Source: Labrys wisconsinensis
GTDB lineage: Bacteria > Pseudomonadota > Alphaproteobacteria > Rhizobiales > Labraceae
Length of the DNA stretch: 64,000 nt
Reading direction: 5' to 3'
Assembly (NCBI RefSeq): GCF_030814995.1
Contig: NZ_JAUSVX010000001.1
Coordinates: 806,001 to 870,000, forward strand
The translations under genes and the position numbers were made by a program. The notes beneath the pieces were generated by a model. It had not been told where the DNA came from and did not search any database. It saw only the letters and a list, made by a program, of their open reading frames with translations. Below are positions 47,701 to 64,000 of the stretch, one piece after another (within the stretch, counting starts at the first letter, position 1; each line of letters begins with the position of its first letter).

Positions 47701-48582
47701 TCAACCCCTCTCCCCCACCCAGCTTTCCAGCAGCTTCATCACCGCGGTGATGTCCTCGCCGGCGCCGAGCCTGTCGCGGGCCTCGCGCCAGTTGGCGGCG
47801 GCGGCGGCGAGCGCCGGGGCGGTCACGCCGGCCTCCTCGGCCAGGGCGACGGCGATGCCGATGTCCTTGCAGAACAGCTCCAGGCTCTGGCCGAAGTCGA
47901 AGCTGCGCGGCAGCACGTGGCGGGGCAGCTTGACGTCGACGGCGTGGCTGCGGCCGGAGCCGCGGCTCCACACCTCCAGCATCGCTTCGGGGTCGAGGCC
48001 GAGCCGCGTGCCGACCAGCAGCGCCTCGCAGGACGACCACAGCGTCACCGCCGAGAGATAGTTGTTGAGGGCCTTCAGCGTGTGGCCGGCCCCGAGCGGC
48101 CCGACCAGGCGCGCGCTGGCGCACATCGGCGCCAGCAGCGCGCGGTGGCGCTCGAACAGGACGGCGTCCCCGCCGACCATGGCCGTCAGCGAGCCGCCCT
48201 TCGCGCCGGCCATGCCGCCGCTCACCGGCGCGTCCATCAGGCCGATGCCGAGCGCCTCGAGCTCGCGCCCGAGCGCCACGGTTGCCGCCGGCGTGGCGCT
48301 GGTCATGTCGATCACCGCCCGCCGGGACACGGCGCCGCGGCAGGCCCCGGCCGGCCCGAGCAGGGCCTCGCGCACATCGGCCGCGGTCGGCAGCATCGAG
48401 ATGACGACATCGCCCGGCAGGTCGCGCCCGGCGGCGGCAGCCGGCAGGCCGAGGCCGCGGAACGGCGCCAGCGCCGCGTCCGACAGGTCGGCGACGGCCA
48501 GCGGCACGCCGGCCTGGTGCAGGCGCAGCGCCATCAGCCCGCCCATGCGCCCGACGCCGATGAAGAGCACGCTCCCGCTCAT
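47701..48582 (-). CDS. NAD-dependent beta-hydroxyacid dehydrogenase
   Basis: 293 residues. NAD-binding IGVGRMGGLMALRL at residue 8, substrate loop DAPVSGGMAGAKGGSLT near residue 117, and catalytic lysine in HTLKALNNYLSA near residue 165. It belongs to the 3-hydroxyisobutyrate / tartronate-semialdehyde family but shows no subfamily mark that fixes the substrate. It lies 8 bases downstream of the enoyl-CoA hydratase gene, so the pair is one operon, divergent from the hydrolase-GntR-CMD genes. Confidence 0.88.
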   Translation of the reverse strand: MSGSVLFIGVGRMGGLMALRLHQAGVPLAVADLSDAALAPFRGLGLPAAAAGRDLPGDVVISMLPTAADVREALLGPAGACRGAVSRRAVIDMTSATPAATVALGRELEALGIGLMDAPVSGGMAGAKGGSLTAMVGGDAVLFERHRALLAPMCASARLVGPLGAGHTLKALNNYLSAVTLWSSCEALLVGTRLGLDPEAMLEVWSRGSGRSHAVDVKLPRHVLPRSFDFGQSLELFCKDIGIAVALAEEAGVTAPALAAAAANWREARDRLGAGEDITAVMKLLESWVGERG

Positions 48583-48590
48583 GGCCGCCT

Positions 48591-49304
48591 CTATCGGCGC
48601 AGGGCGCGGGCCGACAGCGACAGCGCCATGGTGTTGACGCCGGTGCGGGCCATGTGGTCGTCGGTCATGCCGTCCATGCGCCGGCAGAAGGTCCTGAGCA
48701 GGCGCACCGAATCCGCGTCCATCGCGGCGATGGAGGCGGCGAGCTCACGCGCCCGCGCCAGCGCCCCGCCCGGCGCCGTCACCTCGTTGACGATGCCGAG
48801 CGCCTGCGCCTCCTCGGCGCCGAACTCCCGGCTGGTCAGCGCCAGCTCGAAGGCCTTCTTGGACGGCACGAACTTGCCGAAATAGGACAGCACGATCAGC
48901 GGCGGCAGGCCGTGGCTCATCTCCGGCAGGGCGAATCGCGCGTTGGCAGCAGCAATGGTGAGGTCGCACTGGGTGGCGAAACCGCAGCCGAAGCCGAAGG
49001 CCCGGCCCTCCACCGCGGCGATGACCGGCACGTCGAGGCCGTTGAGACGCCGGTTGACCGCCAGGATCAGCTCGAGGTCGTCGCGGATGTCGCTCGCGGC
49101 CGTCAGCCCCTTGGCGCCGATGCGCCCGCAGCAGAAATCCGCGCCCTCCCCGGCGACGATGACCGCGCGCAGACCAGGCTCCGCGGCCACGGCGTCGAAG
49201 GTCCCGGCCAGCGTCACCAGGTCCGCCGAGCGGATGTGGTTGCCGTCCTCGGCGCGGGTGATCTCGATCACCGTCACGCCGGCTGCGTCGTTCTCGACCT
49301 TCAT
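48591..49304 (-). CDS. Enoyl-CoA hydratase/isomerase-family protein
   Basis: 237 residues, slightly short for the family. Crotonase fold: the oxyanion-hole segments ADFCCGR (near residue 55) and EGRAFGFGCGFATQCDLTIA (near residue 100) are present. The usual catalytic glutamates are not clear, since the segment reads LPEMSHGLPP. It may hydrate, isomerise or hydrolyse a CoA thioester. First gene of its two-gene operon. Confidence 0.88.
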   Translation of the reverse strand: MKVENDAAGVTVIEITRAEDGNHIRSADLVTLAGTFDAVAAEPGLRAVIVAGEGADFCCGRIGAKGLTAASDIRDDLELILAVNRRLNGLDVPVIAAVEGRAFGFGCGFATQCDLTIAAANARFALPEMSHGLPPLIVLSYFGKFVPSKKAFELALTSREFGAEEAQALGIVNEVTAPGGALARARELAASIAAMDADSVRLLRTFCRRMDGMTDDHMARTGVNTMALSLSARALRR

Positions 49305-49378
49305 GATGCGTGTCCTCGTCTGTCGCCGGCCTGCGGGCTCCGTCGGGGCCCTTGCACGGCTGCTTTAAGCAAACTAGC

Positions 49379-49409
49379 GTATGACAGAACTATCGTCATA
49401 CTGTCATAC
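49379..49409. promoter_or_regulatory. Three-part candidate GntR operator
   Basis: GTATGAC (49379-49385), then GTCATAC (49395-49401) and again GTCATAC (49403-49409): one forward and two inverted copies of a 7-base word in 31 bases. GTATGACAG with CTGTCATAC (49401-49409) is a 9-base perfect inverted repeat. It lies in the shared promoter of the divergent operons 48591- and 49433+, the latter encoding a GntR regulator. Confidence 0.6.
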
Positions 49410-49432
49410 ATTGTCGAACGGGAGGGCCGGCC

Positions 49433-50215
49433 ATGCAGACGATCGAGGTCCGCGGCGAGACGCTGCACTACGAGCGTGCCGGCAGCGGCCCGCCCCTCCT
49501 CCTGGTCCACAGCCTCGGCACGGGCGCCTGGCTGTGGCGGGACGAGATCCGCCGCTGGTCGTCCCTCTTCGACGTGATCGCCGTCGACGCGCGCGGCCAT
49601 GGCCGCTCCACCGCGCGCGGCGCCCCGACCGTGCCGGAGATCGCCGCCGACCTCGCGGCTGTCATCGCCGCGCTCGGCCTCGCACCGGCGCATGTCGTCG
49701 CCATCTCCATGGGCGGGCCGATCAGCGCCCATCTGATCGCGCAGGCGCCCGGCAGCGTCGCCAGCCTGGTCATCGCCGACAGCTTCGCCAACCAGGGCGA
49801 AGCGGGCGCCAAGCGGGCCGAGACCATCGCCGCTGTCGTGCGCGACGTCGGCATGGCCGAGTTCGGCCGGCGCTATGCGCAGGACACGCTGCTGCCCGCC
49901 ACCCCGCGCCCCGTGTTCGACGAGCTCGCCGCCAGCCTCGGCGCCATGGATGCGCAGACCTATATCGCCTGCGCGACGTCCGTGTTCACCAGCGATGTGC
50001 GCGACCTCATGGCCGCCATCCGCGTGCCCGTGCGCATCGTCGTCGGCGAGCGCGACAACCGCACGCCGCCGGCCCTGTCCGAGGCGATCGCCGCGCTGAT
50101 TCCGGGCGCCGGGCTCCACCACATTGCCGACGCCGCCCATCTCGCCAATCTCGACCAGCCCGAGCGCTTCGAGGCGGCTGTGCTGTCCTTCCTCACCGCG
50201 CAAGCGGGCCTCTAG
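49433..50215 (+). CDS. Alpha/beta hydrolase (PcaD/NicD-like)
   Basis: 260 residues behind GGGAGGG. Alpha/beta-hydrolase fold: LLLVHSLGTGAWLW holds the oxyanion part, the nucleophile is S92 in AISMGG, the acid is in ERDNRTPP, and the base is the histidine in DAAHLAN near residue 238. It resembles 3-oxoadipate enol-lactonase; N-formylmaleamate deformylase (NicD) of nicotinate degradation has the same fold. Two facts speak for a degradative role: the CMD-family gene downstream and NicX further on. The substrate is not proven. Confidence 0.88.
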   Translation: MQTIEVRGETLHYERAGSGPPLLLVHSLGTGAWLWRDEIRRWSSLFDVIAVDARGHGRSTARGAPTVPEIAADLAAVIAALGLAPAHVVAISMGGPISAHLIAQAPGSVASLVIADSFANQGEAGAKRAETIAAVVRDVGMAEFGRRYAQDTLLPATPRPVFDELAASLGAMDAQTYIACATSVFTSDVRDLMAAIRVPVRIVVGERDNRTPPALSEAIAALIPGAGLHHIADAAHLANLDQPERFEAAVLSFLTAQAGL

Positions 50216-50218
50216 CCC

Positions 50219-50911
50219 ATGGCGGAGGCCGCCACCTTCGCCGGGCTCGGCCTGGCGCCGCTGCGCCAGGAGGCGGCGCCGCTGCGCCGCAAGATCGCGG
50301 CGACGCTGCGGAGCCTGATCGAGACCGGCGCCCTGCCGGCCGGCACGCGCCTGATCGAGAAGGAACTCTGCGCCGAGCTCGCCGTCAGCCGCACCGCCCT
50401 GCGCGAGGCGCTGCGCGAGCTGGAGAGCGAGGGCCTGCTCGTCGCCGGCGCCCGCGGCCTCGCCGTGGGCGGCCTCAGCCCGGCCGAAGCCGCCGACATC
50501 TATGCCGTGCGCGCCGCCCTGGAAGGCCAGGTGGCCGAGCAGTTCGTCGCCCGCGCCGATGCCGCCGCCCTGGCCCGGCTCGAAGCGGCGGCCGACGCCC
50601 TGCGCCGCGCCTATGAGGGCGGCCCCATCGAGCCGATCCTGGCGGCCAAGCGCGACTTCTACGACTGCCTCTGCGCCGGCGCCGCCAACACCGTGGTCCC
50701 GGAGCTGCTGGCGCGGCTCAATTCGCGCATCAGCCGGCTGCGCGTCCGCTCCCTCGCCGATCCCGGCCGCAGCGCCGCCTCGCTCGCCGAGATCGAGGCC
50801 CTGCTCGCCGCCCTCTGGGCCGGCGACGCCGCCGCGGCGCGCGCCGCGGCGATCCGCCATGTCGAGCGCGCCGCCGCGGCCGCGCTCGGCGCCGCCCTTC
50901 CAGCCCCCTGA
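50219..50911 (+). CDS. GntR-family regulator, FCD subfamily
   Basis: 230 residues, starting 3 bases after the hydrolase stop. Winged helix-turn-helix with LCAELAVSRTALREALRELESEGL near residue 55; the C-terminal helical FCD domain has AKRDFYDCL and IRHVERAAAAA. It probably binds the operator array at 49379-49409 and controls both divergent operons. Confidence 0.9.
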   Translation: MAEAATFAGLGLAPLRQEAAPLRRKIAATLRSLIETGALPAGTRLIEKELCAELAVSRTALREALRELESEGLLVAGARGLAVGGLSPAEAADIYAVRAALEGQVAEQFVARADAAALARLEAAADALRRAYEGGPIEPILAAKRDFYDCLCAGAANTVVPELLARLNSRISRLRVRSLADPGRSAASLAEIEALLAALWAGDAAAARAAAIRHVERAAAAALGAALPAP

Positions 50912-50923
50912 ACGGAGACAGCC

Positions 50924-51307
50924 ATGAGCGACGACCTCTTCGACAAAGGCCTGCAAATCCGCCGCGACGTGGTCGGCAAGGACTATGTCGACCGCTCGCT
51001 GGCCGAGGCCGACGACTTCACCCGCCCGATGCAGGAGCTGGTCACCCGCTTCTGCTGGGGCGAGGTCTGGAGCCGCCCGGGCCTGGAGCGGCGCGAGCGC
51101 TCGATGATCAACCTCGGCATGATCGCGGCGCTCAACCGCCCGCACGAGCTCAAGCTGCACGTGCGCGGCGCCCTCAACAACGGCCTGACCCGCGACGAGA
51201 TCCGCGAGATCTTCCTGCAGGTCGCGGTCTATTGCGGCATGCCCGCCGCCCTCGACAGCTTCCGCATCGCACGGGAGGTGTTCAAGGAGGTGGACGCGGG
51301 GAAGTAG
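50924..51307 (+). CDS. Carboxymuconolactone decarboxylase (CMD) family protein
   Basis: 127 residues, behind CGGAGAC. All-helical CMD fold of the PcaC type: FCWGEVWSRPGL, LGMIAALNRPHELKLHVRGA and GLTRDEIREIFLQVAVYCGMPAA. The CxxC peroxidase motif of AhpD is absent, so an antioxidant role is unlikely. In the beta-ketoadipate route PcaC and PcaD work together; here a PcaD-like hydrolase lies in the same operon, but the other pca genes are missing, so an analogous pathway is more likely. Confidence 0.88.
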   Translation: MSDDLFDKGLQIRRDVVGKDYVDRSLAEADDFTRPMQELVTRFCWGEVWSRPGLERRERSMINLGMIAALNRPHELKLHVRGALNNGLTRDEIREIFLQVAVYCGMPAALDSFRIAREVFKEVDAGK

Positions 51308-51373
51308 GGGAGCGGGGCGGGGCTGACGGCGGGGCGAGATGGACGCGTGTCGAACAAGGCGCGCCGCCTGCGT

Positions 51374-51574: not shown

Positions 51575-51596
51575 TCTCGTACCGGTCGTCGCCATC

Positions 51597-52529
51597 TCAC
51601 CGCGCGCCACGGACATAGGGCACGCCGAGCGCCGCCGGCAGGCTGGCTCGCCGGCCGAACAGCACCAGCACCAGGGTCACCGCGGCGAAGGGCAGCATCT
51701 GGATCACGTCGGTGGGGATGTCGACGCCGGCGACCTGCAGCGCCGTGGTCATCGACAGGCACGCCCCGAACAGGAGCGCCCCGCCGAGGACCCAGAGCGG
51801 GCGCCCGCGCGCCAGCATGGCGAGGACGATGCCGATGAAGCCGGCGCCGTTGGTCATGAACGGGATGAAGATGCCGGCGCCGATCTCGGCCATGAAGGCG
51901 CCGCCGAGCCCGGCCAGGGCCCCGGTGGTCAGAACCGCCACCGTCCGGGTGCGAGCCACGTCGACCCCGGCCGAATCGAGCGCTGCCGGCTTGTCGCCCG
52001 CCGCCTGCAGCGCCACGCCGAGATGGGTGGAGCGGTAGAGGACGCTCAGCACCGCCACCGCCGCGAGCGCGAGATAGACGATGGCCGGCCGGTCGAACAG
52101 CGCCGGCCCGATCACCGGGATCTTCGACAGCAGCGGGATCGGCAGGGTCTCGGCCGCCGGCAGGCGCGGATAGGTCTGGCTGAACTGCACGTGGTGCAGC
52201 AGCGCGGTGATGCCTTCTGCCCCGAGCGTCAGGGCGATGCCGATGACGATCTGGCTGAGCCCCAGCCGGACGCAGAACAGCGCCATCAGCGCCGCCACCA
52301 GCATGCCGCCGGCGATGCCGCCGAGAAAGCCGAGCCAGATCGAGCCGCTGTCATAGGCGACGAGGAAGCCGCAATAGGCCCCCGTCAGCATCATGCCCTC
52401 GATGCCGACATTGAGCACGCCGGCCTTCTCCGACATCTGCTCGCCCAGGCCCGCCAGCAGCAGCGGCAGGCCGGCGGTGATCGCGCCGAGCACCAGCGAG
52501 GTGAGGAAGGCTTCGGTGAGCAGGCCCAT
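51597..52529 (-). CDS. BMP-type ABC transporter permease (second)
   Basis: 310 residues with about nine spans. KAGVLNVGIEGMMLTGAYCG near residue 35 is the signature of the nucleoside-type permeases (YufQ/NupC-like in BPD_transp_2), and VVIG-type helix DSAGVDVARTRTVAV follows near residue 185. It lies 9 bases after the first permease gene. Last gene of the four-gene operon starting at 56307. Confidence 0.9.
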   Translation of the reverse strand: MGLLTEAFLTSLVLGAITAGLPLLLAGLGEQMSEKAGVLNVGIEGMMLTGAYCGFLVAYDSGSIWLGFLGGIAGGMLVAALMALFCVRLGLSQIVIGIALTLGAEGITALLHHVQFSQTYPRLPAAETLPIPLLSKIPVIGPALFDRPAIVYLALAAVAVLSVLYRSTHLGVALQAAGDKPAALDSAGVDVARTRTVAVLTTGALAGLGGAFMAEIGAGIFIPFMTNGAGFIGIVLAMLARGRPLWVLGGALLFGACLSMTTALQVAGVDIPTDVIQMLPFAAVTLVLVLFGRRASLPAALGVPYVRGAR

Positions 52530-52538
52530 GGCGCGCCT

Positions 52539-53626
52539 TCAGCTCCGGATCCGCTCGCGCCGGCGCTGGTCGAGATATTCGGCCAGGGCCAGCACGATCA
52601 GCAGGATGGCGACGATCGCCAGGGTGAAGAAGTTCGGCACGCCGAGCCGCCGCGCCGCGCTCTCGCCGCCGATCGACAGGACCGAGAACAGGAAGACGAA
52701 GACGATGGCGGCAAAGCCGTTGAAGCGCGCCAGGAACACCAGCGGCACCACGGTGAGGCTGTAGGCCGGGTTCCAGTCGGCGCGGACATTGCCCTGCACG
52801 CCGAGGATCTCCACCGCCCCCGCCATCCCCGCCAGCCCGGCCGAGATGGCGAACACCGCCACGGTGAGGCGCGGCACGTTGAGGCCGGCATGGATGGCGG
52901 CCGTGGCATTGGCGCCGACGACCCTGAGCTTCAGGCCGAAAGCGGTGCGCGTCATGACCAGGTGCACCGCGACGATGGCGACGAGGCCGATGATCACCCC
53001 GCTGGAGATCGTCGTGCCGAACAGCCGCGGCAGCCGGTCGTCGACCACCAGCGTGCGGGTCTGCGGCACCGTCGTGGCGGGATCGCGAAAGGCGAGCTTG
53101 ACCAGCACATTGGCGAAGGACACGCCGAGGAAGGTCATCATCAGCGTGGTGATGATCTCGTTGACGCCCTGATAGGCGCGCAGCAGCGCCGGCAGCAGCG
53201 ACCAGGCCGCGCCGACGGCGGCCCCGAGCACCAGGCACAGCACCAGCGTCAGCCAGACCGGCGCCACCGTGGCGAGCAGCGGCCCGGCCGCGGCCACGGT
53301 CACCGCGCCGAGCAGGAACTGGCCGTCGCCGCCGAGGTTCCAGATGCCGGCCCGGAAGGCGACGATCAGGCTGGCGGCGAGCAGCAGCAGCGGCGCCATC
53401 CGCGTCACCGTCGCCTGCAGGCCGTAGGGCGAGAGCAGCCCGCGCTCCAGCACCGTGGCGTAATAGGCCAGGGGATCGACGCCGAGCGTGAGCAGGATCG
53501 CCCCCGAGAGCACCAGCGCCGCGGCGATCGGGCCGAGCGTCATGGCGATGACGCGGATCCAGGCGCCGCGCTCGGCGGAACCGCCGGGTGCCGGCTCGGC
53601 GGCGCTCGTCTCCAGGGTCTCCAGGC

Positions 53627-53630
<4 letters not shown>
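52539..53630 (-). CDS. BMP-type ABC transporter permease (first)
   Basis: 363 residues. ASLIVAFRAGIWNLGGDGQFLLGA near residue 84 is the YufP-type permease signature, followed by LRAYQGVNEIITTLMM. About nine to ten spans. It overlaps the ATPase stop by four bases (ATGA). With the permease at 51597 it forms a heterodimeric channel. Confidence 0.9.
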
Positions 53631-55210
<1,580 letters not shown>

Positions 55211-55269
55211 GGACACCTGGGATCTCGAAACCACGGCGGACGGGGAACGCCCCCGTCCGCCGCGGGCGG

Positions 55270-56307
55270 TCACTGGGCCGTGGCGAGCTGCGTCACCAGG
55301 GCGTGCACGGCGCCGGCGTCGAACTGCGGCTCGACCTTGATCTTGCCGCTGATGATGTCGGCGCGAATGCCCTCGATCTGCTTCCAGACGTCGTCGGGGA
55401 TGTGGCTGGTCTTGAGCAGCGACACCGAATCGTCCGCCAGCTTGATGCCGTAGCCGTGGGTGCCGAACTTGTCGGTCTTGAGGTCCTCGATCATCGCGGT
55501 GAACACCGGCGTCAGGTTCCAGACCACCGAGGAGAGCAGGTTGCCCTTGTCGAGGCTGGACTTGTCGCCGATCACGTCGATGAAATAGACCTTGCCGCCG
55601 TCGGTGGCCTTGGTGGTCTCCACCGCCTGCAGCATGCCGAAGCTCGAGCCGTTGCCCTGGCCGAAGATGATGTCGGCGCCGGCGGCGATCACCGATTCCG
55701 TCACGCGCTTGCCGCCGGCCGCGTCGCTGTAGGCGGCCGGGCCGATCACGGCGTAGCGGATGGTGGTGCCCGGCTTCTCCGCCTTGACGCCCTCGGCGAA
55801 GGCGGCGGACTGGGTGTTCCAGCCCGGAGGCTCGCCGGAGACGACGATGCCGACCGTGCCGGTGCGCGTCATCTTGGCGGCGAGGCGGCCGGCGAGATAG
55901 GCGCCCTCGTGGCCGCTCATGGTGTAATCGGCCACCGCGCCGGGCTTGGCGGCGCTCGGCATGTCGGTGATGGCGACCGGCACCTTCATCTCGGCGCCGA
56001 TCTCGGGCGCCGCGGTGTTGTAGCCGCTGGCATGGGCGATGATCAGGCCGGCGCCGTCCTCGGCGAGCTCGCGCAGGGTCGGGCGCACGTCGCCATAGCC
56101 GAGATTCTCGGCCACGACAGCCTTGATGCCTTCCTTCTCGGCAGCGGCCTTGGCGGCCGCGATGCCCTGCTGGTTCCAGCCGAAATCCGTTCCTTGCTCA
56201 GGCGTCAATATAGCGATGGATTTGACGTCGGCCGCAAAGGAAACCGACGAGAAGGCCACAGACAACGCCAATGCAGCCAAGCCAAGACGCACACGTCCGG
56301 CACTCAT
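55270..56307 (-). CDS. BMP-family ABC transporter substrate-binding protein
   Basis: 345 residues from the ATG at 56307, behind AAGAGGAGA. Signal peptide ending SFAA at about residue 26. Basic-membrane-protein/PnrA-like fold: EQGTDFGWNQQGIAAAKAA near residue 37, GAGLIIAHASGYNTA, VSGEPPGWNTQSAAFAEG and FGQGNGSSFGML. Characterised relatives bind nucleosides; others in proteobacteria bind diverse ring compounds. Next to hydroxylase, amidases and NicX a heterocyclic substrate is plausible. First gene of the importer operon. Confidence 0.9.
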   Translation of the reverse strand: MSAGRVRLGLAALALSVAFSSVSFAADVKSIAILTPEQGTDFGWNQQGIAAAKAAAEKEGIKAVVAENLGYGDVRPTLRELAEDGAGLIIAHASGYNTAAPEIGAEMKVPVAITDMPSAAKPGAVADYTMSGHEGAYLAGRLAAKMTRTGTVGIVVSGEPPGWNTQSAAFAEGVKAEKPGTTIRYAVIGPAAYSDAAGGKRVTESVIAAGADIIFGQGNGSSFGMLQAVETTKATDGGKVYFIDVIGDKSSLDKGNLLSSVVWNLTPVFTAMIEDLKTDKFGTHGYGIKLADDSVSLLKTSHIPDDVWKQIEGIRADIISGKIKVEPQFDAGAVHALVTQLATAQ

Positions 56308-56416
56308 GATCCGTTCTCCTCTTGTCATGGTTCGATGGTTTACTTTTTTAACTTGTGATCTTGCTTTATCGTAATAGGATCATCGCGCCTCGCAAGCCCA
56401 AATATCGGAGACGACG

Positions 56417-56857
56417 ATGTCGATGCCCCGCCGGTCCGCCGCGCTCGCGCTGCTCGCCGGCCTCCTCTTCGCCCCGGCCCCGCTGGCGGCCGAGGAAGCC
56501 CTGGTGGTGGTGCGCGGCACGGACGGCCTGACGCCGGTGCCCTTCACCGCGGTCAATGCCGGCGGGCGGCCCATCGCCTGCACGGCGGCGACCGCGCATT
56601 GGTATTCGGTGGAGCTCGGCACGGCCGCGCCCGGCGCCAGCATCCGCACGACGCTGTGGGCGTCGAAGGCCAATGGCGAGGTGTTCGTGCTCAACGCCAG
56701 GCAGGACCGCATGCCGCTGATCGACCTGTGGTGCGGCCTTGCCGGCCGCTCCTGGGCGACGCGCAGCCCGGTGCCGCTCGCCCGCGCCGCCGGCGCGGTG
56801 CCCGGGGACATCGCCCTCACCTGCCGCGACGGCGACGATACGCTGGTCTGCCGCTGA
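56417..56857 (+). CDS. Small secreted protein of unknown function
   Basis: 146 residues (a second ATG lies two codons downstream). Signal peptide of about 25 residues ending PLAA. The mature part of about 120 residues is rich in beta-strand-like segments and has four cysteines (in IACTA, LWCGL, LTCRD and VCR), enough for two disulfides. No family recognised. It is divergent from the BMP importer operon, 109 bases away, and is followed by a 724-base gap. Confidence 0.6.
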   Translation: MSMPRRSAALALLAGLLFAPAPLAAEEALVVVRGTDGLTPVPFTAVNAGGRPIACTAATAHWYSVELGTAAPGASIRTTLWASKANGEVFVLNARQDRMPLIDLWCGLAGRSWATRSPVPLARAAGAVPGDIALTCRDGDDTLVCR

Positions 56858-57581
56858 GCCCGCCGCGGCGGAGCCGGCCTGTCCGGCGTCCCGGCACGCC
56901 CTGGGACGAGCCCGTCGCGGCACCTGTCCTGCATGACCTTCACCCTACGGCCCCGGCGGCGGCCGGCCGGGAGCGGACCGGGCGGCGGAGCGCCCGCGAA
57001 GGCCGCTCCACCCGCCACGACAACCACTCAACCATAAGCGATTTTATTGGTCAATCCGGCCGGCCGGAGCCGCCCGATACCTCCGCGCCGAGGCGCCCTG
57101 CCTCGCCGCCCGGATGGAATTCGCAAGCCGCTGAATGCGGTCAGCATATTCCGACGATTTCGTGGCACTCATCGCAATCGATGCACGATCCTCATGCCGG
57201 AAAATCATACTCCGAAATAGAGTCTGATGCCCTGTTGTCACCTCTGCACGTGATAAGCTGCATCAATTCCCTGTACATAGTTTCGCAGTGAGACAATGAA
57301 CCGGAAATACGGACGATCAAGTCCATATGTTAAGCTTCCATTGCGGAGCTTGACGTTTCCGCCTGCACGCCGGGATCGATGCCTCACCGCATCACGACCG
57401 GCCGGTCGGGCCGAAAAAAAGCGGCAACCGGTCTTGACCATTTTTCCGAATGAATGGTTGTATGGCGTCAAAGGGGCGCCGCGTCGCACGGCCGGCCCCA
57501 AGCGGATTCCAGAAGGGTCGCTGCATCCGCCGGATGCTCCGGCCAGACACGTTTTGGCACTGTTCGAGGGAGGATTCCATC
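56858..57581 (+). promoter_or_regulatory. 724-base gap, AT-rich upstream region of the HpaB-type gene
   Basis: About 57040-57440 is visibly AT-richer than the rest of the window. A fair promoter, TTGACC (57434-57439), 18 bases, TTGTAT (57458-57463), lies about 120 bases before the hydroxylase start. CGACCGGCCGGTCG at 57395-57408 is a perfect palindrome just upstream and could be an operator. A 65-codon frame on the minus strand (57044-57241) has no ribosome site or recognisable motif and is not called. The AT-rich part could be a decayed gene or transferred DNA. Confidence 0.4.
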
Positions 57582-59075
57582 ATGGAATCGGCAGCGGGGA
57601 AACTGCGGTCGGTCGCCGACCGCCCGGTCAAGCTGAAGACCGGCGCCGAGTTCAAGGCTTCGCTCGACGACGGGCGCCAGATCTGGGTGGGCGGGCGCAA
57701 GCTCGACAAGGTCACCGACGACCCGGCGCTGAGCGCCGGCATCGACCTCATCGCCTCCATGTTCGACGACCAGTTCACCGAGGAATTCGCCGACGCCACC
57801 ACCTATGAGGATCCGCAGACGGGGGCCATCGTCAGCCGCGCCTGGCAGGTGCCGCGCACGCTGAAGGACCTGGAGGACCGCCGCAAGATCATCGAATATT
57901 CCAGCCTGAAGACGGCGGGCACCTTCGGCCGCCCGCCGGATCTGGCGCCGGCCATCGCCGTCGGCCTGCTCGCCTATCTCCCGACCTTCAGGGCGAAGAA
58001 ATCCCTGATCGAGGGCTGCTCGCCGGACTTCGCCGAGAACATCCAGAACTACATCGCCTTCGGCCGCGACAACAACCTCACGGCGTCCGAGAGCCTCACC
58101 GGCCCGCAGAACGACCGCTCCTCGCCCAAGGGCGTCGAAGCCTCGCTGCTGCGCGTCAAGAGCGTGGAGAAGGGCGGCATCCGCGTCTCCGGCGCCAAGA
58201 CCGTCGGCTCGATCTCGGCCCAGGCCAACGAGATCTTCTTCACCAATCTCGGCGGCATCCGCGAGACGCCAGCCGAGGCCTGCATCTGGGCCTCGGTGCC
58301 GATCAACGCCGACGGCATCCGGATGATCTCGCGCGAGACGGTCTCCCATCCCGGCGCCGATCCCTTCGATCACCCGGTGGCGAGCCTCGGCGAGGAGGCC
58401 GACCAGCTCATCATCTTCGACAACGTCTTCGTGCCGACCGAGCGGATCTTCAACCTCGGCGACCCGACGGCCATGCAATATTACGGCCCGGTCTGCACCT
58501 TCGCCCATTGGCACGTGCTGACGCGCCTCGCCGTCAAGGCGGAGCTGTTCGTCGGCGCCGGCCAGCTGGTGCTCGACGTGCTCGGCACCAGCCATATTCC
58601 GGCGGTGCAGGGCATGCTCGGCGAGATCATCGAATATGCCCAGACCCTGCGCGCCTTCGTCTACGCCGCCGAGGCCAAGGCGAAGCCGACCGAGGGCGAG
58701 GTGATGGCGCCCGACGTCGGCATGCTCACCGCCGGCCGGCTCTATTCGATCCAGCACTATCCGCGCATCATCCACACCCTGCAGGAGCTGTGCGGCCAGG
58801 GCCTGGTGATGCGCTTCGGCAAGGCGGCGTTCGAGAACCCGGAGATCGGCCACTATCTCCGCGACCTCCTGCCGGGCAAGGGCGTCAGCGCCATGGCCAA
58901 GGAGCAGCTGATGAACTTCGTCTGGGACATGACCTCCGGCTCGCTCGCCGGCCGCGTCGCCCTGTTCGAGAACGTCAACGCCAGCCCGGCCCCGCGCCTG
59001 CGCGAGCGCCTCTACAACGAGGTCAAGCGCGACGGCTTCATGGCGCAGGTGAAGAAGCTGGCGGGAATGGAGTGA
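57582..59075 (+). CDS. HpaB-family FADH2-dependent aromatic hydroxylase
   Basis: 497 residues from the ATG at 57582, behind GGGAGGA; an upstream ATG at 57450 has no ribosome site. 4-hydroxyphenylacetate 3-monooxygenase family: LTGPQNDRS near residue 170 is the flavin/substrate loop, and the C-terminal helical domain includes CTFAHWHVLTRLAVKAELFVGA near residue 305 and the segment FENVNASPAPRLRERLY at the end. These enzymes use reduced FAD from a separate reductase (HpaC type), which is not in the window. With NicX downstream the substrate may be a hydroxypyridine and not a phenol. It could share regulation with the amidase genes. Confidence 0.9.
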   Translation: MESAAGKLRSVADRPVKLKTGAEFKASLDDGRQIWVGGRKLDKVTDDPALSAGIDLIASMFDDQFTEEFADATTYEDPQTGAIVSRAWQVPRTLKDLEDRRKIIEYSSLKTAGTFGRPPDLAPAIAVGLLAYLPTFRAKKSLIEGCSPDFAENIQNYIAFGRDNNLTASESLTGPQNDRSSPKGVEASLLRVKSVEKGGIRVSGAKTVGSISAQANEIFFTNLGGIRETPAEACIWASVPINADGIRMISRETVSHPGADPFDHPVASLGEEADQLIIFDNVFVPTERIFNLGDPTAMQYYGPVCTFAHWHVLTRLAVKAELFVGAGQLVLDVLGTSHIPAVQGMLGEIIEYAQTLRAFVYAAEAKAKPTEGEVMAPDVGMLTAGRLYSIQHYPRIIHTLQELCGQGLVMRFGKAAFENPEIGHYLRDLLPGKGVSAMAKEQLMNFVWDMTSGSLAGRVALFENVNASPAPRLRERLYNEVKRDGFMAQVKKLAGME

Positions 59076-59117
59076 GGGGGAGGCCTTCGAGGATATCGAC
59101 GCTTATCGCGAAGACCT

Positions 59118-59254
59118 CGACGCCGACCGATCCCCTCCCCCCTGTGGGGAGGGGCTAGGGGTGGGGGTGGTTGACACGGGGCTCGCCCTGTCCTGATGGA
59201 CCCCCATCCCTCACCCTTCCCCACAAGGGGGAAGGGAAAAACCTTGCGTCGCGT
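59118..59254. repeat. Intergenic palindromic repeat, family 1, copy E
   Basis: CCCCTCCCCCCTGTGGGGAG on the left, TGTCCTGATGGACCCCCATC in the middle, CCTTCCCCACAAGGGGGAAG on the right. It is the only family 1 copy between genes of the same direction (hydroxylase and SnoaL-like gene), where it may partly terminate or process the message. Confidence 0.85.
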
Positions 59255-59276
59255 TCAAAAGGCGTCAGGACAAGCC

Positions 59277-59684
59277 ATGGCGGACGACACGATCGAAGCC
59301 TTCTATGCCGCCTATAACGGGCACGACGCCGAGGCGGCGGCGGGGCTGCATGCGCCGGACGGCTGGCTGGAGGAAGCGGCGACCGGGCGGCGGCGCCAGG
59401 GGCGCGCCGCGCTCGCCGACGGCCTGCAGCGCCTGTTCGCCATGCTGCCCGACGTCGCTTGGACGGTGCGGGAGCCGGTGCGCGCCGGCGCCAGCGTCGT
59501 CGTCCCCTACATCATGAGCGGCCGCCTCGCCCGCGATCTCGGCCCGATCCGCGGCGTCGGCCAGCCGATCGTCCTGCCGGGCGTGCATGTCTTCGAGCTC
59601 GCCGGCGGCGCCATCGCCGGGCTCCGGGATTACTGGGACGCGGCCGAGTTCCAGCGCCAGGCGCGCGCGGGAGCACCGGCATGA
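59277..59684 (+). CDS. SnoaL-like (NTF2-fold) protein
   Basis: 135 residues from ATG 59277. Pattern of the SnoaL/NTF2-like alpha+beta cone: IEAFYAAYNGHDAEAAAGLHAPDG at the N-terminus, then four strands with VVVPYIMSGRLARDLGPIRG and LPGVHVFELAGGAIAGLRDYWD at the C-terminus. Members are small isomerases, cyclases or hydrolases or have no enzymatic role. Its stop overlaps the ATG of the first amidase (ATGA), so it is translated together with it. Confidence 0.82.
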   Translation: MADDTIEAFYAAYNGHDAEAAAGLHAPDGWLEEAATGRRRQGRAALADGLQRLFAMLPDVAWTVREPVRAGASVVVPYIMSGRLARDLGPIRGVGQPIVLPGVHVFELAGGAIAGLRDYWDAAEFQRQARAGAPA

Positions 59685-61129
59685 GCGCCATCGCCGAGTA
59701 CGGACGGCTCGATGCCACGGCCCTCGCCGAGCTCGTGCGCCGCCGCGAGGTCACGCCGCTGGAGCTCCTGGAGGAGGCGGTGCGGCGCATCGAGGCGCTG
59801 AACCCGCTCCTCAACGCCGTCGTCCATCCCTTCTTCGAGCTCGGCCGCCGGACGATCGAGGCCGGCCTGCCGGCGGGGCCGTTCCGCGGCGTGCCCTTCC
59901 TGATCAAGAACACCGGCTTCGAGATGGCGGGAACGCCGCTCTCCACGGGCTCGCGCCTGTTCCAGGGCGTGGTCTCGCCGACGGACAGCACGCTGGTCCA
60001 GCGCTACAAGAATGCCGGGCTGGTGCCGATCGGCAAGAGCAACACCCCGGAATTCGCGCTGAGCTTCACCACCGAGCCCTTGGCCTTCGGCCCCTCGCGC
60101 AATCCCTGGAATCCCGGCCGCAGCCCGGGCGGCTCCTCCGGCGGCTCGGCCGCCGCCGTGGCGGCCGGCCTGGTTCCCCTCGCCAATGCCTCGGACGGGG
60201 CCGGCTCCACCCGCCTGCCCGCCTCCCATTGCGGCCTGTTCGGCTTCAAGCCGAGCCGGATGCGCAACCCGCTCGGCCCGGTGGTGGTCGAGGGCATCGC
60301 CGGCATGTCGACGCCGCACTGCGTCAGCTGGAGCGTGCGCGACAGCGCCGCCCTGCTCGACGCCTCCGCCGGGCCGGACCAGGGCGATCCCTATGCCGCG
60401 CCCCAGCCCGAGCGCCCCTTCCTCGCCGAGCTCGACCGCGATCCCCCGCCGCTGCGCATCGGCCTCACCCTGCGCTCGCCGCTCGGCACGCCGGTCGATC
60501 CGCAATGCCTCGCCGCCGCCCGCGCCATCGGGCGGCTGTGCGAGGAGCTCGGCCACCATGTCGAGGAGACCGACACCGATTACGATGCGCCGGCGCTCAA
60601 GGCGGCCTGGCGCGTGATCGTCGGCGTCAACGTCGCGCCGGCGGTGGCGCTGCAGGGCGAGCGCCGCGGCCTCGCCGATCCCCTCGCCCTGGTCGAGCCG
60701 GTCAACGCCGCCTGGATCGAGGAGGCGCGCGGCAAGTCCGGCGTCGACTACCTCCGTGCCGTCAACCAGCTCCACGCCACGGCCCGGGCGCTCGGCCGCT
60801 TCTTTGCCCGCTACGACGTGCTGCTGTCGCCGGCCGTCGCCGAGCTGCCGCCGCTCCTCGGCCAGATGGCCGGCGCCGGCCAGTCGCTCGACGCCTTCTA
60901 CGACCAGTTCTGGCGGCACGGCCCCTTCACCTGCGCCTTCAACGCCTCGGGCTGCCCGGCGATGAGCGTGCCGGCCACCCTCTCGGCCGAGGGCCTGCCG
61001 ATCGGCGCGCAGCTCGGCGCCGGCTTCGGCAGGGACGGGCTGCTCTTCGCCCTGGCCGGCCAGCTCGAACGGGCTCGGCCCTGGGCCGGGCGCCGGCCGC
61101 CCTCCCCGTCACGGACGCCCCAGCCATGA
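59681..61129 (+). CDS. Amidase-signature-family amidohydrolase (first)
   Basis: 482 residues. Catalytic triad of the amidase signature family can be placed: K76 in PFLIKNTG, the cis-serine in GGSSGGSAAA (near 152) and the nucleophile S176 in DGAGSTRLPA. It hydrolyses an amide to acid and ammonia; the substrate is unknown. Its stop overlaps the start of the second amidase gene (ATGA). Two different amidases in a row are unusual and suggest two amide bonds or two intermediates in one pathway. Confidence 0.92.
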   Translation: MSAIAEYGRLDATALAELVRRREVTPLELLEEAVRRIEALNPLLNAVVHPFFELGRRTIEAGLPAGPFRGVPFLIKNTGFEMAGTPLSTGSRLFQGVVSPTDSTLVQRYKNAGLVPIGKSNTPEFALSFTTEPLAFGPSRNPWNPGRSPGGSSGGSAAAVAAGLVPLANASDGAGSTRLPASHCGLFGFKPSRMRNPLGPVVVEGIAGMSTPHCVSWSVRDSAALLDASAGPDQGDPYAAPQPERPFLAELDRDPPPLRIGLTLRSPLGTPVDPQCLAAARAIGRLCEELGHHVEETDTDYDAPALKAAWRVIVGVNVAPAVALQGERRGLADPLALVEPVNAAWIEEARGKSGVDYLRAVNQLHATARALGRFFARYDVLLSPAVAELPPLLGQMAGAGQSLDAFYDQFWRHGPFTCAFNASGCPAMSVPATLSAEGLPIGAQLGAGFGRDGLLFALAGQLERARPWAGRRPPSPSRTPQP

Positions 61130-62421
61130 GCCAGCGAGATTCCCAGGCAGATCGGATGCCGGGCGTGCGCAGCATCGCCGCCGCGGTGCAGGCCGGCACG
61201 CTGACCGCGGAGGCGGCGACGGCCGCCTGCCTCGCCCGCGTCGCCGCGCGCGAGGACGCCGTGCGGGCCTGGGCCTTCCTCGACCCCGAGCTCGCCCTGG
61301 CCGAGGCGCGCGAGCGCGACCGGACCGGCGCGCACGGGCCGCTCGCCGGCGTCGCAATCGGCGTCAAGGACATCATCGACACCGCCGACCAGCCGACCGC
61401 CTACGGCTCGGCCGCCTATGAGGGCTACCGGCCCGCCTGGGACGCGCCCTGCGTCGCCCTGTCGAGGCAGGCCGGCGCGGTGATGCTCGGCAAGACCGTG
61501 TCGACCGAGTTCGCCTTCGTCGCGCCCGGCAAGACGCGCAACCCCTTCGACCCCGGCCACACGCCCGGCGGCTCCTCCAGCGGCTCCTGCGCTGCGGTCG
61601 CCGACGGCATGGTGCCGCTCGCCTTCGGCACCCAGACCGCCGGCTCGATCGTGCGGCCGGCCTCGTTCTGCGGGGTCGTCGGCTACAAGCCGAGCTACGG
61701 CACGCTGGAGCGGGCCGGCATCAAGGTGCTGTCCGGCAGCCTCGACACGCTCGGCGTGATCACGCGCGACGTGCGCGACGCCGCCCATGCCGTCGCGGTG
61801 CTGGCCCGGCGCCCCGCGCTCGCCGTGCCGGACGTCGCCCTGCCGCCGCGCATCGGCCTGTTCCGCACCTCGCGCTGGGACATGGCGGAGGCGGCGACGC
61901 GGCAGGCGCTCGACCGGGCGGTCGCGGCGCTGGCCGCGCGCGGCGTCGCGGTGCGCGAGGTGGCGGTGCCCGGCTGGTTCGACGAGCTCTTCGCCATGCA
62001 GGACATCGTGATGGGCTGGGAGCTCATGCAGGCCCTCGCCCATGAGCGGCTGGTCCTCGCCGAACGCCTGGCGCCCAAGACCCTCGCCCTGATGGCGGAG
62101 AAGGAAGCGATCACGCTGGCCGATTACGACGCCGCCGTCGCGGCGCTGGCGCCGCTGCAGCAGCGCTTCCATGCCCTCATCGGCGATCTCGACGCGCTGC
62201 TGACCCCGGCCGCGCCCGGCGAGGCGCCGGCCGGCCTGGGCTCGACCGGCGACGCGGTCTTCAATCGCGCCTGGACCATGCTGCGCGTGCCCGGCATCGC
62301 CGTCCCGGCCGGGCTCGGGCCGGGCGGGCTGCCGGTCGGCGTGCAGCTGGTGGGACGGCTCGGCGACGATGCGCGGCTGCTCGCCGCCGCCGCCTTCGTC
62401 GAGGACTCGCTGGCGGCCTGA
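61126..62421 (+). CDS. Amidase-signature-family amidohydrolase (second)
   Basis: 431 residues. Triad: K81 in IGVKDIID, the cis-serine in GGSSSGSCAA (near 150) and nucleophile S174 in TAGSIVRPAS. It is shorter than its neighbour and only distantly similar, so it is not a recent duplicate. In a pyridine pathway it could serve as maleamate amidohydrolase, the step done by the unrelated NicF in Pseudomonas; this is inference. NicX starts 28 bases downstream. Confidence 0.92.
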   Translation: MSQRDSQADRMPGVRSIAAAVQAGTLTAEAATAACLARVAAREDAVRAWAFLDPELALAEARERDRTGAHGPLAGVAIGVKDIIDTADQPTAYGSAAYEGYRPAWDAPCVALSRQAGAVMLGKTVSTEFAFVAPGKTRNPFDPGHTPGGSSSGSCAAVADGMVPLAFGTQTAGSIVRPASFCGVVGYKPSYGTLERAGIKVLSGSLDTLGVITRDVRDAAHAVAVLARRPALAVPDVALPPRIGLFRTSRWDMAEAATRQALDRAVAALAARGVAVREVAVPGWFDELFAMQDIVMGWELMQALAHERLVLAERLAPKTLALMAEKEAITLADYDAAVAALAPLQQRFHALIGDLDALLTPAAPGEAPAGLGSTGDAVFNRAWTMLRVPGIAVPAGLGPGGLPVGVQLVGRLGDDARLLAAAAFVEDSLAA

Positions 62422-62449
62422 AGACGCAACGGCATGAAGGAGGCATGGG

Positions 62450-63493
62450 ATGGCGATCAGTGACCTGGCGCTCGTGGAGGCCTGGAAGGACGTCCTGACG
62501 CTGTCGAAGCTCAGGGCGGGCGAGCAGGTCTGCCTGCTGGTCAGCGACGACAGCAACCCGCAGCTGGTCTCGACGGCGCGCATCGCCGTCGGCCAGCTCG
62601 GCGGCATCCTCACCATCCTGACGCTGCCGCCGCTCAACGGCGACGTGGCGCTGTCCCGGGACAAGTCCGGCTATGTCGGCCACACCGCCCTCAAGGGCAA
62701 CCGCCCGGCGCTGGAGGCGATGAAGCACAGCGACTTCGTCATCGACACGATGATGCTGCTGTTCTCGCCGGAGCAGGAGGAGATCCTCAAGACCGGAGCG
62801 CGCATGCTGCTCGCCTGCGAGCCGCCGGAGGTGATGCTGCGCATGAAGCCGACGCCGGACGATGCCCGCCGGGCCACGGCGGCGGCGGCGCGGCTGGCCC
62901 GCGCCAAGACCCTGACCGTCACCTCCAAGGCCGGCACGGAGTTCTCCTGCGCGGTCGGCCAGTACCCCGTGCTGAAGCAGCAGGGCTTCGTCGACCAGCC
63001 CGGCGGCTGGGACCACTGGCCGAGCTGCTTCGTCGCCACCTGGCCGGACGAGGGCAGCTGCGAGGGCCGCATCGTCATCGACACCGGCGACATCCTGCTG
63101 CCCTTCAAGCGCTACGCCCGCGAGCCGATCGCCCTCACCATCGAGAAGGGCATCATCAGGCGCATCGAGGGCGGCTTCGAGGCCGAATATCTCAAGAGCT
63201 ACATGGAGACGTTCGACGACCCCGATGCCTACGCCATGGCCCATGTCGGCTGGGGCCTGCACAAGCGCGCCCACTGGACCACGCTCGGCCTCTACGACCC
63301 CGAGGCCGGCCTCAGCATGGACGCCCGCTCCTTCGCCGGCAACTTCCTGTTCTCCAGCGGCCCCAACACCGAGGCCGGCGGCACCCGCAACACCCCCTGC
63401 CACATGGACATCCCGCTGCGCGCCTGCTCACTCTCGCTGGATGGCGAGCCGATGACCATCGACGGCAGGGTGGTGCCGGAGGATCAGAGGTAG
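62450..63493 (+). CDS. nicX: 2,5-dihydroxypyridine 5,6-dioxygenase
   Basis: 347 residues behind AAGGAGG. The protein belongs to the M29-like fold often annotated as leucyl aminopeptidase, but its residues agree with NicX: H265 (AMAHVGWG), H318 and D320 (TPCHMDIP), the positions I recall as the iron ligands of the Pseudomonas putida enzyme, at identical numbering; H189 in WDHW is also kept. DTMMLLFSPEQEEILKTG and LACEPPEVMLRM are further family segments. It opens the ring of 2,5-dihydroxypyridine with O2 to N-formylmaleamate. It ends the hydroxylase-SnoaL-amidase-amidase-NicX group. Confidence 0.9.
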   Translation: MAISDLALVEAWKDVLTLSKLRAGEQVCLLVSDDSNPQLVSTARIAVGQLGGILTILTLPPLNGDVALSRDKSGYVGHTALKGNRPALEAMKHSDFVIDTMMLLFSPEQEEILKTGARMLLACEPPEVMLRMKPTPDDARRATAAAARLARAKTLTVTSKAGTEFSCAVGQYPVLKQQGFVDQPGGWDHWPSCFVATWPDEGSCEGRIVIDTGDILLPFKRYAREPIALTIEKGIIRRIEGGFEAEYLKSYMETFDDPDAYAMAHVGWGLHKRAHWTTLGLYDPEAGLSMDARSFAGNFLFSSGPNTEAGGTRNTPCHMDIPLRACSLSLDGEPMTIDGRVVPEDQR

Positions 63494-63542
63494 GGGGAGC
63501 GGGCGACGATAGGAGATGGCGGCGCGGACTCCCCACACGCAA

Positions 63543-63675
63543 CCGTCATGGCCGGGCTTGACCCGGCCATCCACGCGCACGCGCCGATAGCCCGTGTTTG
63601 TCGCGACCTCGGCAGCGCTTTTTACGACTCTCGTCCGTGGTCGCGTGGATGGCCGGGTCAAGCCCGGCCATGACG
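63543..63675. repeat. Intergenic repeat, family 2, full copy
   Basis: Two units, 63544-63577 and 63642-63675, are exact inverted copies over 34 bases; each is itself a hairpin (GGCCGGG-CTTGA-CCCGGCC type). The element lies between the convergent stops of nicX (63493) and the aminotransferase gene (63728). Confidence 0.88.
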
Positions 63676-63727
63676 CTACCGTGGCGGGTGAAGCAGGCCG
63701 GACCTTCCGCGCAGCCCGTTTCCCCCT

Positions 63728-64000
63728 TCACCCCTCCCCGTCGATCGCCGCCATCGCCGCTGCCGCGCCGGCCCCGACATCCACGCGCACGCCCTGCGCG
63801 GCGAGCGCACCGCCGAGGGCCATCACCGCCGTGGCGGCATGGATCGGCTGGGCCGTCGGGCCCATATGGCCGATGCGGGTGAGGCGGCCCAGCGTCTCGC
63901 CGCGGCCGGAGGAGAACACCACGCCGTAGCGGGCCCGCGCCGCCGCGCGCAGCGCCGCCTCGTCGACGCCCTCCGGCGTGCGCACCGCCGTGGCGGTCGG
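63728..64000 (-). CDS. Class V aminotransferase, C-terminal part; pyridoxamine-pyruvate transaminase-like
   Basis: 91 residues remain; the gene runs out of the window at its 5' side. The segment VRTPEGVDEAALRAAARARY, GVVFSSGRGETLGRLTRIGH and MGPTAQPI is very close to what I remember of the end of pyridoxamine-pyruvate transaminase from Mesorhizobium loti, an enzyme of vitamin B6 degradation; the arginine of LTRIGHMG binds the keto acid carboxylate. Alanine-glyoxylate and ureidoglycine-glyoxylate aminotransferases share RIGHMG, so the subfamily call rests on the other residues. The PLP lysine lies outside the window. Confidence 0.75.
   Translation of the reverse strand, partial: PTATAVRTPEGVDEAALRAAARARYGVVFSSGRGETLGRLTRIGHMGPTAQPIHAATAVMALGGALAAQGVRVDVGAGAAAAMAAIDGEG

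Follow-up and report, generated by a model that had tools for sequence, protein, structure and literature searches.

The right end of a 64,000-nucleotide stretch of Labrys wisconsinensis DNA (contig NZ_JAUSVX010000001.1; the whole stretch is hereafter called the window) carries a gene cluster around a NicX-type ring-cleavage dioxygenase which, judged from its genes and their relatives, probably serves the uptake of vitamin B6 and its ring-opening catabolism by a route unlike both of those described. From left to right, the cluster encodes a HIBADH-like dehydrogenase, an enoyl-CoA hydratase/isomerase-fold (ECH-like) protein, a PcaD-like hydrolase, a GntR/FCD regulator, a PcaC-like protein of the 4-carboxymuconolactone-decarboxylase (CMD) type, two permeases, an ATPase and a BMP protein of an importer, a small protein, an HpaB-type monooxygenase, a SnoaL-like protein, two amidases and NicX. 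Beyond the right edge, followed on the own-genome stretch L002, there are a class-V aminotransferase, pyridoxamine-pyruvate transaminase (PPAT), then a GntR/FCD regulator and then an oxidase of the GMC family, pyridoxine 4-oxidase (PNOX). The proposal is carried by the identities of these genes, by their conserved linkage and by the finding that three known-pathway enzymes have no orthologues.

The genes proposed to attack the ring lie on the plus strand. The first encodes an HpaB-type FADH2-dependent monooxygenase (57582..59075), our candidate for the C6 hydroxylase of the B6 ring, with both the HpaB_N and the HpaB domain present (PF11794 and PF03241; scanned as the open reading frame (ORF) 57450-59075). 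It is followed by a SnoaL/NTF2-like small protein (59277..59684, its ATG picked by eye; PF12680 on the longer reading 59196-59684), amidase-signature enzyme 1 (59681..61129; PF01425, E 2e-86, on the ORF 59459-61129), amidase-signature enzyme 2 (61126..62421; PF01425, E 5.4e-74) and the NicX-type Fe(II) ring-cleavage dioxygenase, a Gln177 variant (62450..63493). NicX aligns over its full length with Pseudomonas putida NicX (PDB 7cn3; residues 1-346 to 1-347, E 5.2e-120), and its iron-binding residues H265, S302, H318 and D320 coincide with the same residues of that structure. An earlier reading of the window from its sequence (the original prediction) had named H265, H318 and D320 as iron ligands, and had placed an HpaB-type hydroxylase, a SnoaL-like protein and two amidases upstream of NicX and a BMP importer, an alpha/beta hydrolase, a CMD protein and a GntR regulator nearby; the alignment, which adds S302, and the Pfam matches bear this out. 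To that list we add the ECH-like and HIBADH-like genes (47701-49304) and the conserved small protein (56417-56857). The PF02073 (M29 peptidase) profile did not recover the window NicX, its match falling on another gene.

The substrate is suggested by the importer and by the entry genes. All four importer subunits, encoded on the minus strand, score above the cut-offs of the NCBIfam "putative B6 ABC transporter" models, i.e., permease subunit 1 (51597..52529; NF047928, 544.5 bits, cut-off 465), permease subunit 2 (52539..53630; NF047929, 545.5 bits, cut-off 400), the ATP-binding protein (53627..55273; NF047930, 782.8 bits, cut-off 670) and the BMP-type substrate-binding protein (55270..56328; NF047927, 487.3 bits, cut-off 400). 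PPAT, of which only the C-terminal part is in the window (63728..64000, minus strand), extends to 64909 (L002:5728-6909) and exceeds the cut-off of the NCBI equivalog NF046070 (653 versus 600 bits); its PDB match 2z9u (E 8.2e-189), titled aspartate aminotransferase in the match list, is what we take to be the PPAT structure. PNOX, which lies wholly outside the window, has its best PDB match in 4ha6 (E 2.7e-188, 630 bits), followed by the near-equal 3t37 ("Probable dehydrogenase"), the match after that having 284 bits. In Rhizobium sp. ACO-34A, the depositor's annotation puts pyridoxine 4-oxidase directly next to 2,5-dihydroxypyridine dioxygenase. Taken together, the transport genes and the two entry enzymes indicate vitamin B6 as the likely substrate and not a generic pyridine. 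The pyridine (N-heteroaromatic) substrate of the original prediction thus holds in kind but not in its generality; B6 was among the options named there for a knock-out experiment. A generic pyridine or nicotinate locus was rejected on the same three indications.

The cluster recurs in other genomes. A NicX scan of named genomes gave 55 loci, of which 40 were assigned by their neighbours to the window kind and 15 to the nic kind; L057, with a partial NicX and none of the nic neighbour families c15-c18, was assigned to the latter by genus only and is left out of the NicX residue counts. Presence was scored within 10 kb of NicX (flanks end there or at the contig end) at identity thresholds of 35 to 52%, set by gene, with 35% or more for the HIBADH homologue. 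So scored, HpaB accompanies NicX in 39/40 window-kind loci, SnoaL, amidase 1 and amidase 2 in 37/40 each, CMD in 29/40, HIBADH in 28/40, BMP in 19/40, GntR in 11/40, and the PcaD-like and ECH-like genes in 10/40 each, while none of them occurs in any of the 15 nic-kind loci. The clustering of HpaB, SnoaL and the amidases with NicX is not chance. Within these cut flanks, PNOX was found in 21/40 and PPAT in 4/40 loci (0/15 for both in the nic kind). Searches of whole genomes, made for 50 of the 55 (all 40 and ten of the 15 nic-type, five being left out), found PNOX in 39/40 and PPAT in 40/40 genomes with the window-type NicX versus 0/10 nic-type genomes, counts which ignore the kinship of the genomes. 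The single PNOX miss is a metagenome-assembled genome whose 6-kb NicX contig (L023) ends in a PNOX-like piece, and in 38/39 genomes PNOX and PPAT share a contig, their starts lying 2.2-12.6 kb apart.

A second draw, overlapping with the first at least in Chthonobacter and Siculibacillus, covered 297 genomes of the order. HpaB was present at 85-100% identity in six of them, the next matches reaching 31-33%. The same six have NicX at no less than 81%, further NicX matches being at 37-54%. A hydroxylase conserved where nicX is always absent, which the original prediction had named as a finding that would refute it, is not what these genomes show. At the limits applied, 14 genomes have PNOX and 21 have PPAT. 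The six are among them, and in each of the six HpaB, NicX, PNOX and PPAT are all on one 20-kb stretch. Distant HpaB relatives differ from that pattern: Thioclava and Terrarubrum have only a 37-40% NicX-like gene, and an Aminobacter plasmid with a 40% HpaB relative has no NicX-like gene in the 27 kb read. On plasmids of Thioclava, Terrarubrum and Peribacillus, HpaB stands with a NicX-like gene without PNOX or PPAT (27 kb read), and the HpaB-NicX coupling is thus broader than B6. This would suit the idea that HpaB, SnoaL, the amidases and NicX degrade a different hydroxypyridine and that the B6 genes are mere neighbours. We consider this idea quite improbable, given PNOX and PPAT in nearly all genomes with the window NicX versus none of the nic type, and given that the PNOX genomes without such a NicX carry 4-pyridoxolactonase and pyridoxal dehydrogenase instead (8/8). 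Furthermore, one inverted repeat recurs before both HpaB and PPAT/GntR in window-kind loci.

This repeat, RACCA-N10-16-TGGTY, has 18 occurrences in six window-kind loci, against 0 to 0.27 expected per locus from simple base shuffles, and 15 of the 18 are found before HpaB or between PPAT and GntR, with coordinates read by eye. In the window, two unstranded copies from the inverted-repeat scan precede HpaB, AACCA-N13-TGGTC (57030..57052) and GACCA-N14-TGGTT (57436..57459), both candidate operators of the HpaB operon. The repeat was absent from three of six other HpaB-type loci scanned, in a fourth (L022) both sites are outside the two promoter regions, and none was seen in 7/8 loci of the pathway-I kind; a search for a shared 12-mer operator returned a weak word only. 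Since the pattern was shaped after viewing the sites, it is suggestive and no independent test, and we offer it as an operator lead.

NicX itself bears on the comparison with the nic cluster of P. putida KT2440. The four iron-binding residues are kept in 41/41 sequences (40 loci plus the window). Of the residues holding the substrate, His189 is kept, while position 177 is Gln in 41/41 versus Glu in 15/15 nic-type sequences (14 loci plus P. putida). According to the portion of the structural work available to us, Glu177 hydrogen-bonds N1 and O1 of 2,5-dihydroxypyridine (DHP), E177A retains 2.7% activity, DHP is cleaved at C5-C6, and activity on substrates besides DHP had not been reported (PMC7910607). 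His105 is Phe in 41/41 as well; because Phe also occurs in 7/15 nic-type sequences and the H105F variant stays active (PMC7910607, same portion), this exchange is uninformative. Gln177 tracks the two-amidase set rather than B6, because it is also present in the NicX-like proteins of the Thioclava and Terrarubrum loci, which have neither PNOX nor PPAT in the 27 kb read.

The proposal made earlier for the window was a nicotinate or hydroxypyridine pathway of the nic type in which the first and the last steps are replaced by others. The close match to P. putida NicX (5e-120) with identical iron ligands agrees with it, as does a Peribacillus locus in which HpaB keeps company with Asp/Glu racemases, isochorismatase-type hydrolases and an alpha/beta hydrolase near a NicX-like gene. 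However, the neighbours do not fit. At least one of the families c15-c18 (Amdase-fold, alpha/beta hydrolase, FAD_binding_3 and isochorismatase) is present in 14/15 nic-type loci, 11 of which-kind loci also have a [2Fe-2S] protein (c19) and 10 a molybdopterin-binding protein (c23), whereas these six families conserved round the nic-type NicX were found in 0/40 HpaB-type loci. In addition, Glu177, the loss of which costs nearly all DHP activity in the accessible text of PMC7910607, is Gln throughout, and the B6 importer, PPAT and PNOX would be left unexplained; a nic-type pathway is, hence, hardly tenable here. What does stand is the claimed difference from nic, with an FADH2-type hydroxylase for the molybdenum hydroxylase and amidases for NicD and NicF.

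The known B6 pathway was followed in 32 genomes, comprising 20 with the window kind of NicX, eight PNOX controls without such a NicX and four more. The control loci carry 4-pyridoxolactonase (PDB 3aj3, E 3e-182), pyridoxal 4-dehydrogenase (3ndr, 2.8e-108) and 5-formyl-3-hydroxy-2-methylpyridine-4-carboxylate (FHMPC) dehydrogenase (4om8, 9.7e-181). A further query is presumably the 2-methyl-3-hydroxypyridine-5-carboxylate (MHPC) oxygenase, an identity taken from context and not from a PDB match. Over all 32 genomes, 4-pyridoxolactonase (68% identity or more) is whole in nine and in two pieces in one, and pyridoxal 4-dehydrogenase (67% or more) is present in nine; four genomes have the presumed MHPC oxygenase (86% or more). 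Among the 20 genomes with the window NicX, no orthologue of 4-pyridoxolactonase was found (0/20; best match 33%, in the Labrys genome too) versus 8/8 controls, none of pyridoxal 4-dehydrogenase (0/20; best 46%, Labrys 42%, among matches with E 1e-45 or better) versus 8/8 controls, and none of the presumed MHPC oxygenase at 86% or more (0/20; best 40%). The families k13 (FHMPC dehydrogenase), k32 (an aldolase-fold protein beside FHMPC dehydrogenase, which we take to be like the decarboxylase of 3-hydroxy-2-methylpyridine-4,5-dicarboxylate, HMPDC) and k34 (for acetamidomethylene-succinate hydrolase) have no member in the clustered HpaB loci, no genome-wide search for them having been made.

A further alternative is that B6 is degraded via 4-pyridoxate with unrelated dehydrogenases encoded in trans. 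HpaB and NicX would then come into play only after a decarboxylation, their substrate being a compound such as a 3-hydroxy-2-methylpyridine. In the locus kind of Brucella, Ciceribacter and Rhizobium, the oxidation of pyridoxal and the opening of the lactone could indeed fall to a short-chain dehydrogenase/reductase (SDR) and a metallo-hydrolase encoded there, and CMD-type proteins are decarboxylases. However, that SDR and that hydrolase share only 33% and 27% identity with pyridoxal 4-dehydrogenase and 4-pyridoxolactonase, for which reason they were rejected as plain orthologues of these enzymes, and they are not conserved in the locus kind of the window; nor do k13 and k32 have members in the clustered loci. 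On balance, we regard the 4-pyridoxate alternative as rather unlikely.

Some of the compared genomes depart from the known pathway in their own way. In L126, L135, L136 and L138, a variant B6 locus combines PPAT, 4-pyridoxolactonase, FHMPC dehydrogenase and PNOX (in L138, PNOX is just outside the stretch) with a cupin of the gentisate-1,2-dioxygenase family (TIGR02272 209 bits, cut-off 442) and an LVIVD-repeat protein, as well as RidA in three of the four. The cupin/LVIVD set stands where L127, L128 and L137 have the presumed MHPC oxygenase, and the best oxygenase match of those four genomes is 32% or lower. HMPDC is salicylate-like, and the cupin might cleave it directly; five of the eight controls may use another ring-opening enzyme. 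In G137, the 4-pyridoxolactonase is present as two separate pieces beside PPAT (C1:3238842-3239308), in a genome without a PNOX match at the limit used.

The importer, PPAT, PNOX and small-protein families are shared by both B6 locus kinds, so that a common type of module for uptake and entry is combined with ring-opening modules that differ. The GntR family beside PNOX (k10) is shared with five control loci, L127, L128 and L137 having a different GntR there. With B6 degradation pathway I (Mesorhizobium loti MAFF303099, Pseudomonas sp. MA-1), the window kind shares PNOX, PPAT and the BMP-type importer family, but in 20 genomes it lacks pyridoxal 4-dehydrogenase, 4-pyridoxolactonase and the presumed MHPC oxygenase, and in place of a single flavin oxygenase plus hydrolase it has HpaB, NicX and two amidases. 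Pathway II (Arthrobacter Cr-7, Pseudomonas sp. IA) degrades the same vitamin but begins at C5 via isopyridoxal. With the nic cluster, the likeness is the NicX-type dioxygenase with its four iron-binding residues; the differences are the missing nic neighbour families, Gln177 for Glu177, a flavin-type hydroxylase, amidase-signature enzymes and a B6 importer. Two B6 degradation routes are named in the accessible part of PMC3538738. In the open-access literature (subscription papers being outside our scope), we found no description of an HpaB/NicX route for B6, in line with the earlier statement that this gene order is undescribed.

HpaB has its nearest solved structures among 4-hydroxyphenylacetate, nitrophenol and chlorophenol monooxygenases. 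The orthologues read are 73-88% identical, compared with 31-33% for the next matches in the same order and 40-66% for plasmid relatives; R117 is kept in 38/38 and H311 in 39/39 of them. Both residues are presumably catalytic, as in HadA. For HadA, a relative of HpaB, the part of PMC6180312 available describes the hydroxylation of phenols para to the OH group. Window HpaB resembles the two-component flavin monooxygenases HpaB, HadA and TcpA in its HpaB_N and HpaB domains, and in its relatives a flavin reductase is found in the operon; its proposed substrate, however, is a pyridinol. The original prediction had seen no flavin reductase, which is right for the interval between amidase 2 and NicX in the window; 29/40 related loci, however, have one there (PF01613), and elsewhere in the Labrys genome there are 12 flavin reductase matches, the best at 48%.

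Plasmid records of more distant relatives, read over 27 kb each, show other combinations. In Thioclava and Terrarubrum (L269 and L270), HpaB at 64-66% is found with both amidases and a flavin reductase; the NicX-like gene there, at 37-40%, bears the label leucyl aminopeptidase, and PNOX and PPAT are absent from the 27 kb. Thioclava also has a 58% BMP importer. These are possibly related pyridine routes. Two further HpaB matches, at 63-65%, are on Neorhizobium plasmids. The Peribacillus plasmid NZ_OY970401.1 (L271) carries two HpaB copies (51% to that of the window), Asp/Glu racemases, isochorismatase-type hydrolases, a flavin reductase and an alpha/beta hydrolase, along with a 43% NicX-like gene, again labelled leucyl aminopeptidase, which has Glu177. 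From its gene content, this Firmicute locus looks like a lower pathway of the nic type that is fed by HpaB.

For the B6 route that we favour, we infer the enzyme activities, the order of steps, the lower pathway and the compound actually attacked (pyridoxal, lactone or pyridoxate) as follows. Pyridoxine and pyridoxamine would be imported by the BMP-type importer and converted to pyridoxal, the former by PNOX and the latter by PPAT. HpaB would then hydroxylate the ring at C6, acting either on pyridoxal or on its 4-oxidised form. C6 is the sole unsubstituted carbon of the B6 ring and is para to the 3-hydroxyl; para-hydroxylation of a B6 vitamer could therefore yield nothing but a 3,6-dihydroxypyridine, and with it the substitution pattern of 2,5-dihydroxypyridine that NicX needs. 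NicX would cleave the C3-C2(CH3) bond (B6 numbering) and, because C2 bears the methyl group, the product would be an N-acetyl amide, not the N-formyl amide of the nicotinate pathway. Such a product would explain why there are two amidase-signature enzymes instead of a deformylase and a NicF-type hydrolase; the two amidases would release acetate and ammonia, replacing NicD and NicF. Of the hydroxylation, ring opening, deformylation and deamidation foreseen by the original prediction, deformylation thus drops out and the other three are retained.

What remains, a butenedioate with a hydroxymethyl substituent or the corresponding lactone, would be the substrate for decarboxylation by the PcaC-like CMD protein (50924..51307, plus strand; PF02627; TIGR02425 equivalog 160.2 bits, cut-off 155.7). 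The lactone may be opened by the PcaD-like lactonase, an alpha/beta hydrolase nearest to 3-oxoadipate enol-lactonase (49433..50215, plus; PF00561; TIGR02427 158 bits, below the cut-off of 256). This hydrolase had been likened to the N-formylmaleamate deformylase NicD; we rejected that assignment, its closest relative being an enol-lactonase and a C2-methyl substrate being expected to give an N-acetyl and not an N-formyl compound. The ECH-like protein (48591..49304, minus; PF00378) and the HIBADH/2-hydroxy-3-oxopropionate-reductase-like beta-hydroxyacid dehydrogenase (47701..48582, minus; PF14833 and PF03446) would lead to central metabolism. A GntR/FCD-family regulator lies among these genes (50219..50911, plus; PF07729 and PF00392). 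In loci of the Brucella/Rhizobium kind, MmgE/PrpD, SDR and metallo-hydrolase genes are found along with CMD and HIBADH.

In its most specific form, which we would put somewhat below an even chance, the proposal is a third B6 pathway, present in 40 genomes besides the window (mostly Alphaproteobacteria), that never makes 4-pyridoxate, with free pyridoxal hydroxylated at C6 by a two-component flavin monooxygenase and the ring cut to an N-acetyl amide by the Gln177 NicX. If so, direct hydroxylation of the ring would, to our knowledge, have its first demonstrated case among the B6 vitamers in pyridoxal.

Several observations weigh against a B6 route of this kind. No pyridoxal-oxidising gene is visible in the locus kind of the window, so that the first ring attack may fall on pyridoxal or on an oxidised form of it. 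NCBI's B6 transporter models are themselves named "putative". PPAT is not diagnostic alone, as four congeners (G001-G004) have a 61-63% relative without matches to HpaB, NicX or PNOX, and Labrys wisconsinensis itself carries a second PPAT-like gene at 65% (G000 C10:22522-23670; L091, L144). Gln177 is shared with the Thioclava and Terrarubrum proteins. Among the absent enzymes, the presumed MHPC oxygenase carries little weight as a control, with only 3/8 controls having it and 2/20 genomes having a 40% homologue, and FHMPC dehydrogenase and the later enzymes were checked at clustered loci only, with no genome-wide search. The genes of the lower pathway vary between loci, from 29/40 for CMD down to 10/40 for the PcaD-like and ECH-like genes. 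Within 10 kb of NicX, both amidases are missing from L017 and L028 (Neorhizobium), and HpaB, SnoaL and both amidases from L034 (Brucella grignonensis) at the thresholds used. In L034, NicX, PNOX, PPAT and MmgE/PrpD remain, with only a 38% match to amidase 2, as in a decayed or rearranged locus.

Further features of the region are recorded for completeness. The small protein (56417..56857, plus strand), divergent from the importer, has a signal-like N-terminus and no Pfam or NCBIfam match. Its family occurs in 16/29 clustered loci, in both B6 locus kinds, and 19 aligned sequences share an invariant H61 W62 and W105 C106 G107 plus further Cys; the AlphaFold model is mostly beta (pLDDT 87), and a fold search returned no match at E 0.001 or below. 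The intergenic stretches 63546-63690, downstream of NicX, and 59120-59240, between HpaB and SnoaL, look palindromic and repeat-like by eye. To the right of PNOX (L002:9201-13959), an oxidase of the DAO family and an ABC importer of the NMT1 type are encoded, which are not kept with the cluster in the compared loci.

The accessible part of PMC3538738 presents B6 catabolism as the best understood catabolic pathway of a cofactor, with two routes described, and a third would use different ring chemistry. If the proposal is true, this third route would be present in dozens of rhizobia-related species and would correct the annotation in many genomes, where the records read currently bear labels such as "4-hydroxyphenylacetate 3-monooxygenase", "amidase" or "hypothetical protein"; NicX, moreover, would gain a second natural substrate.

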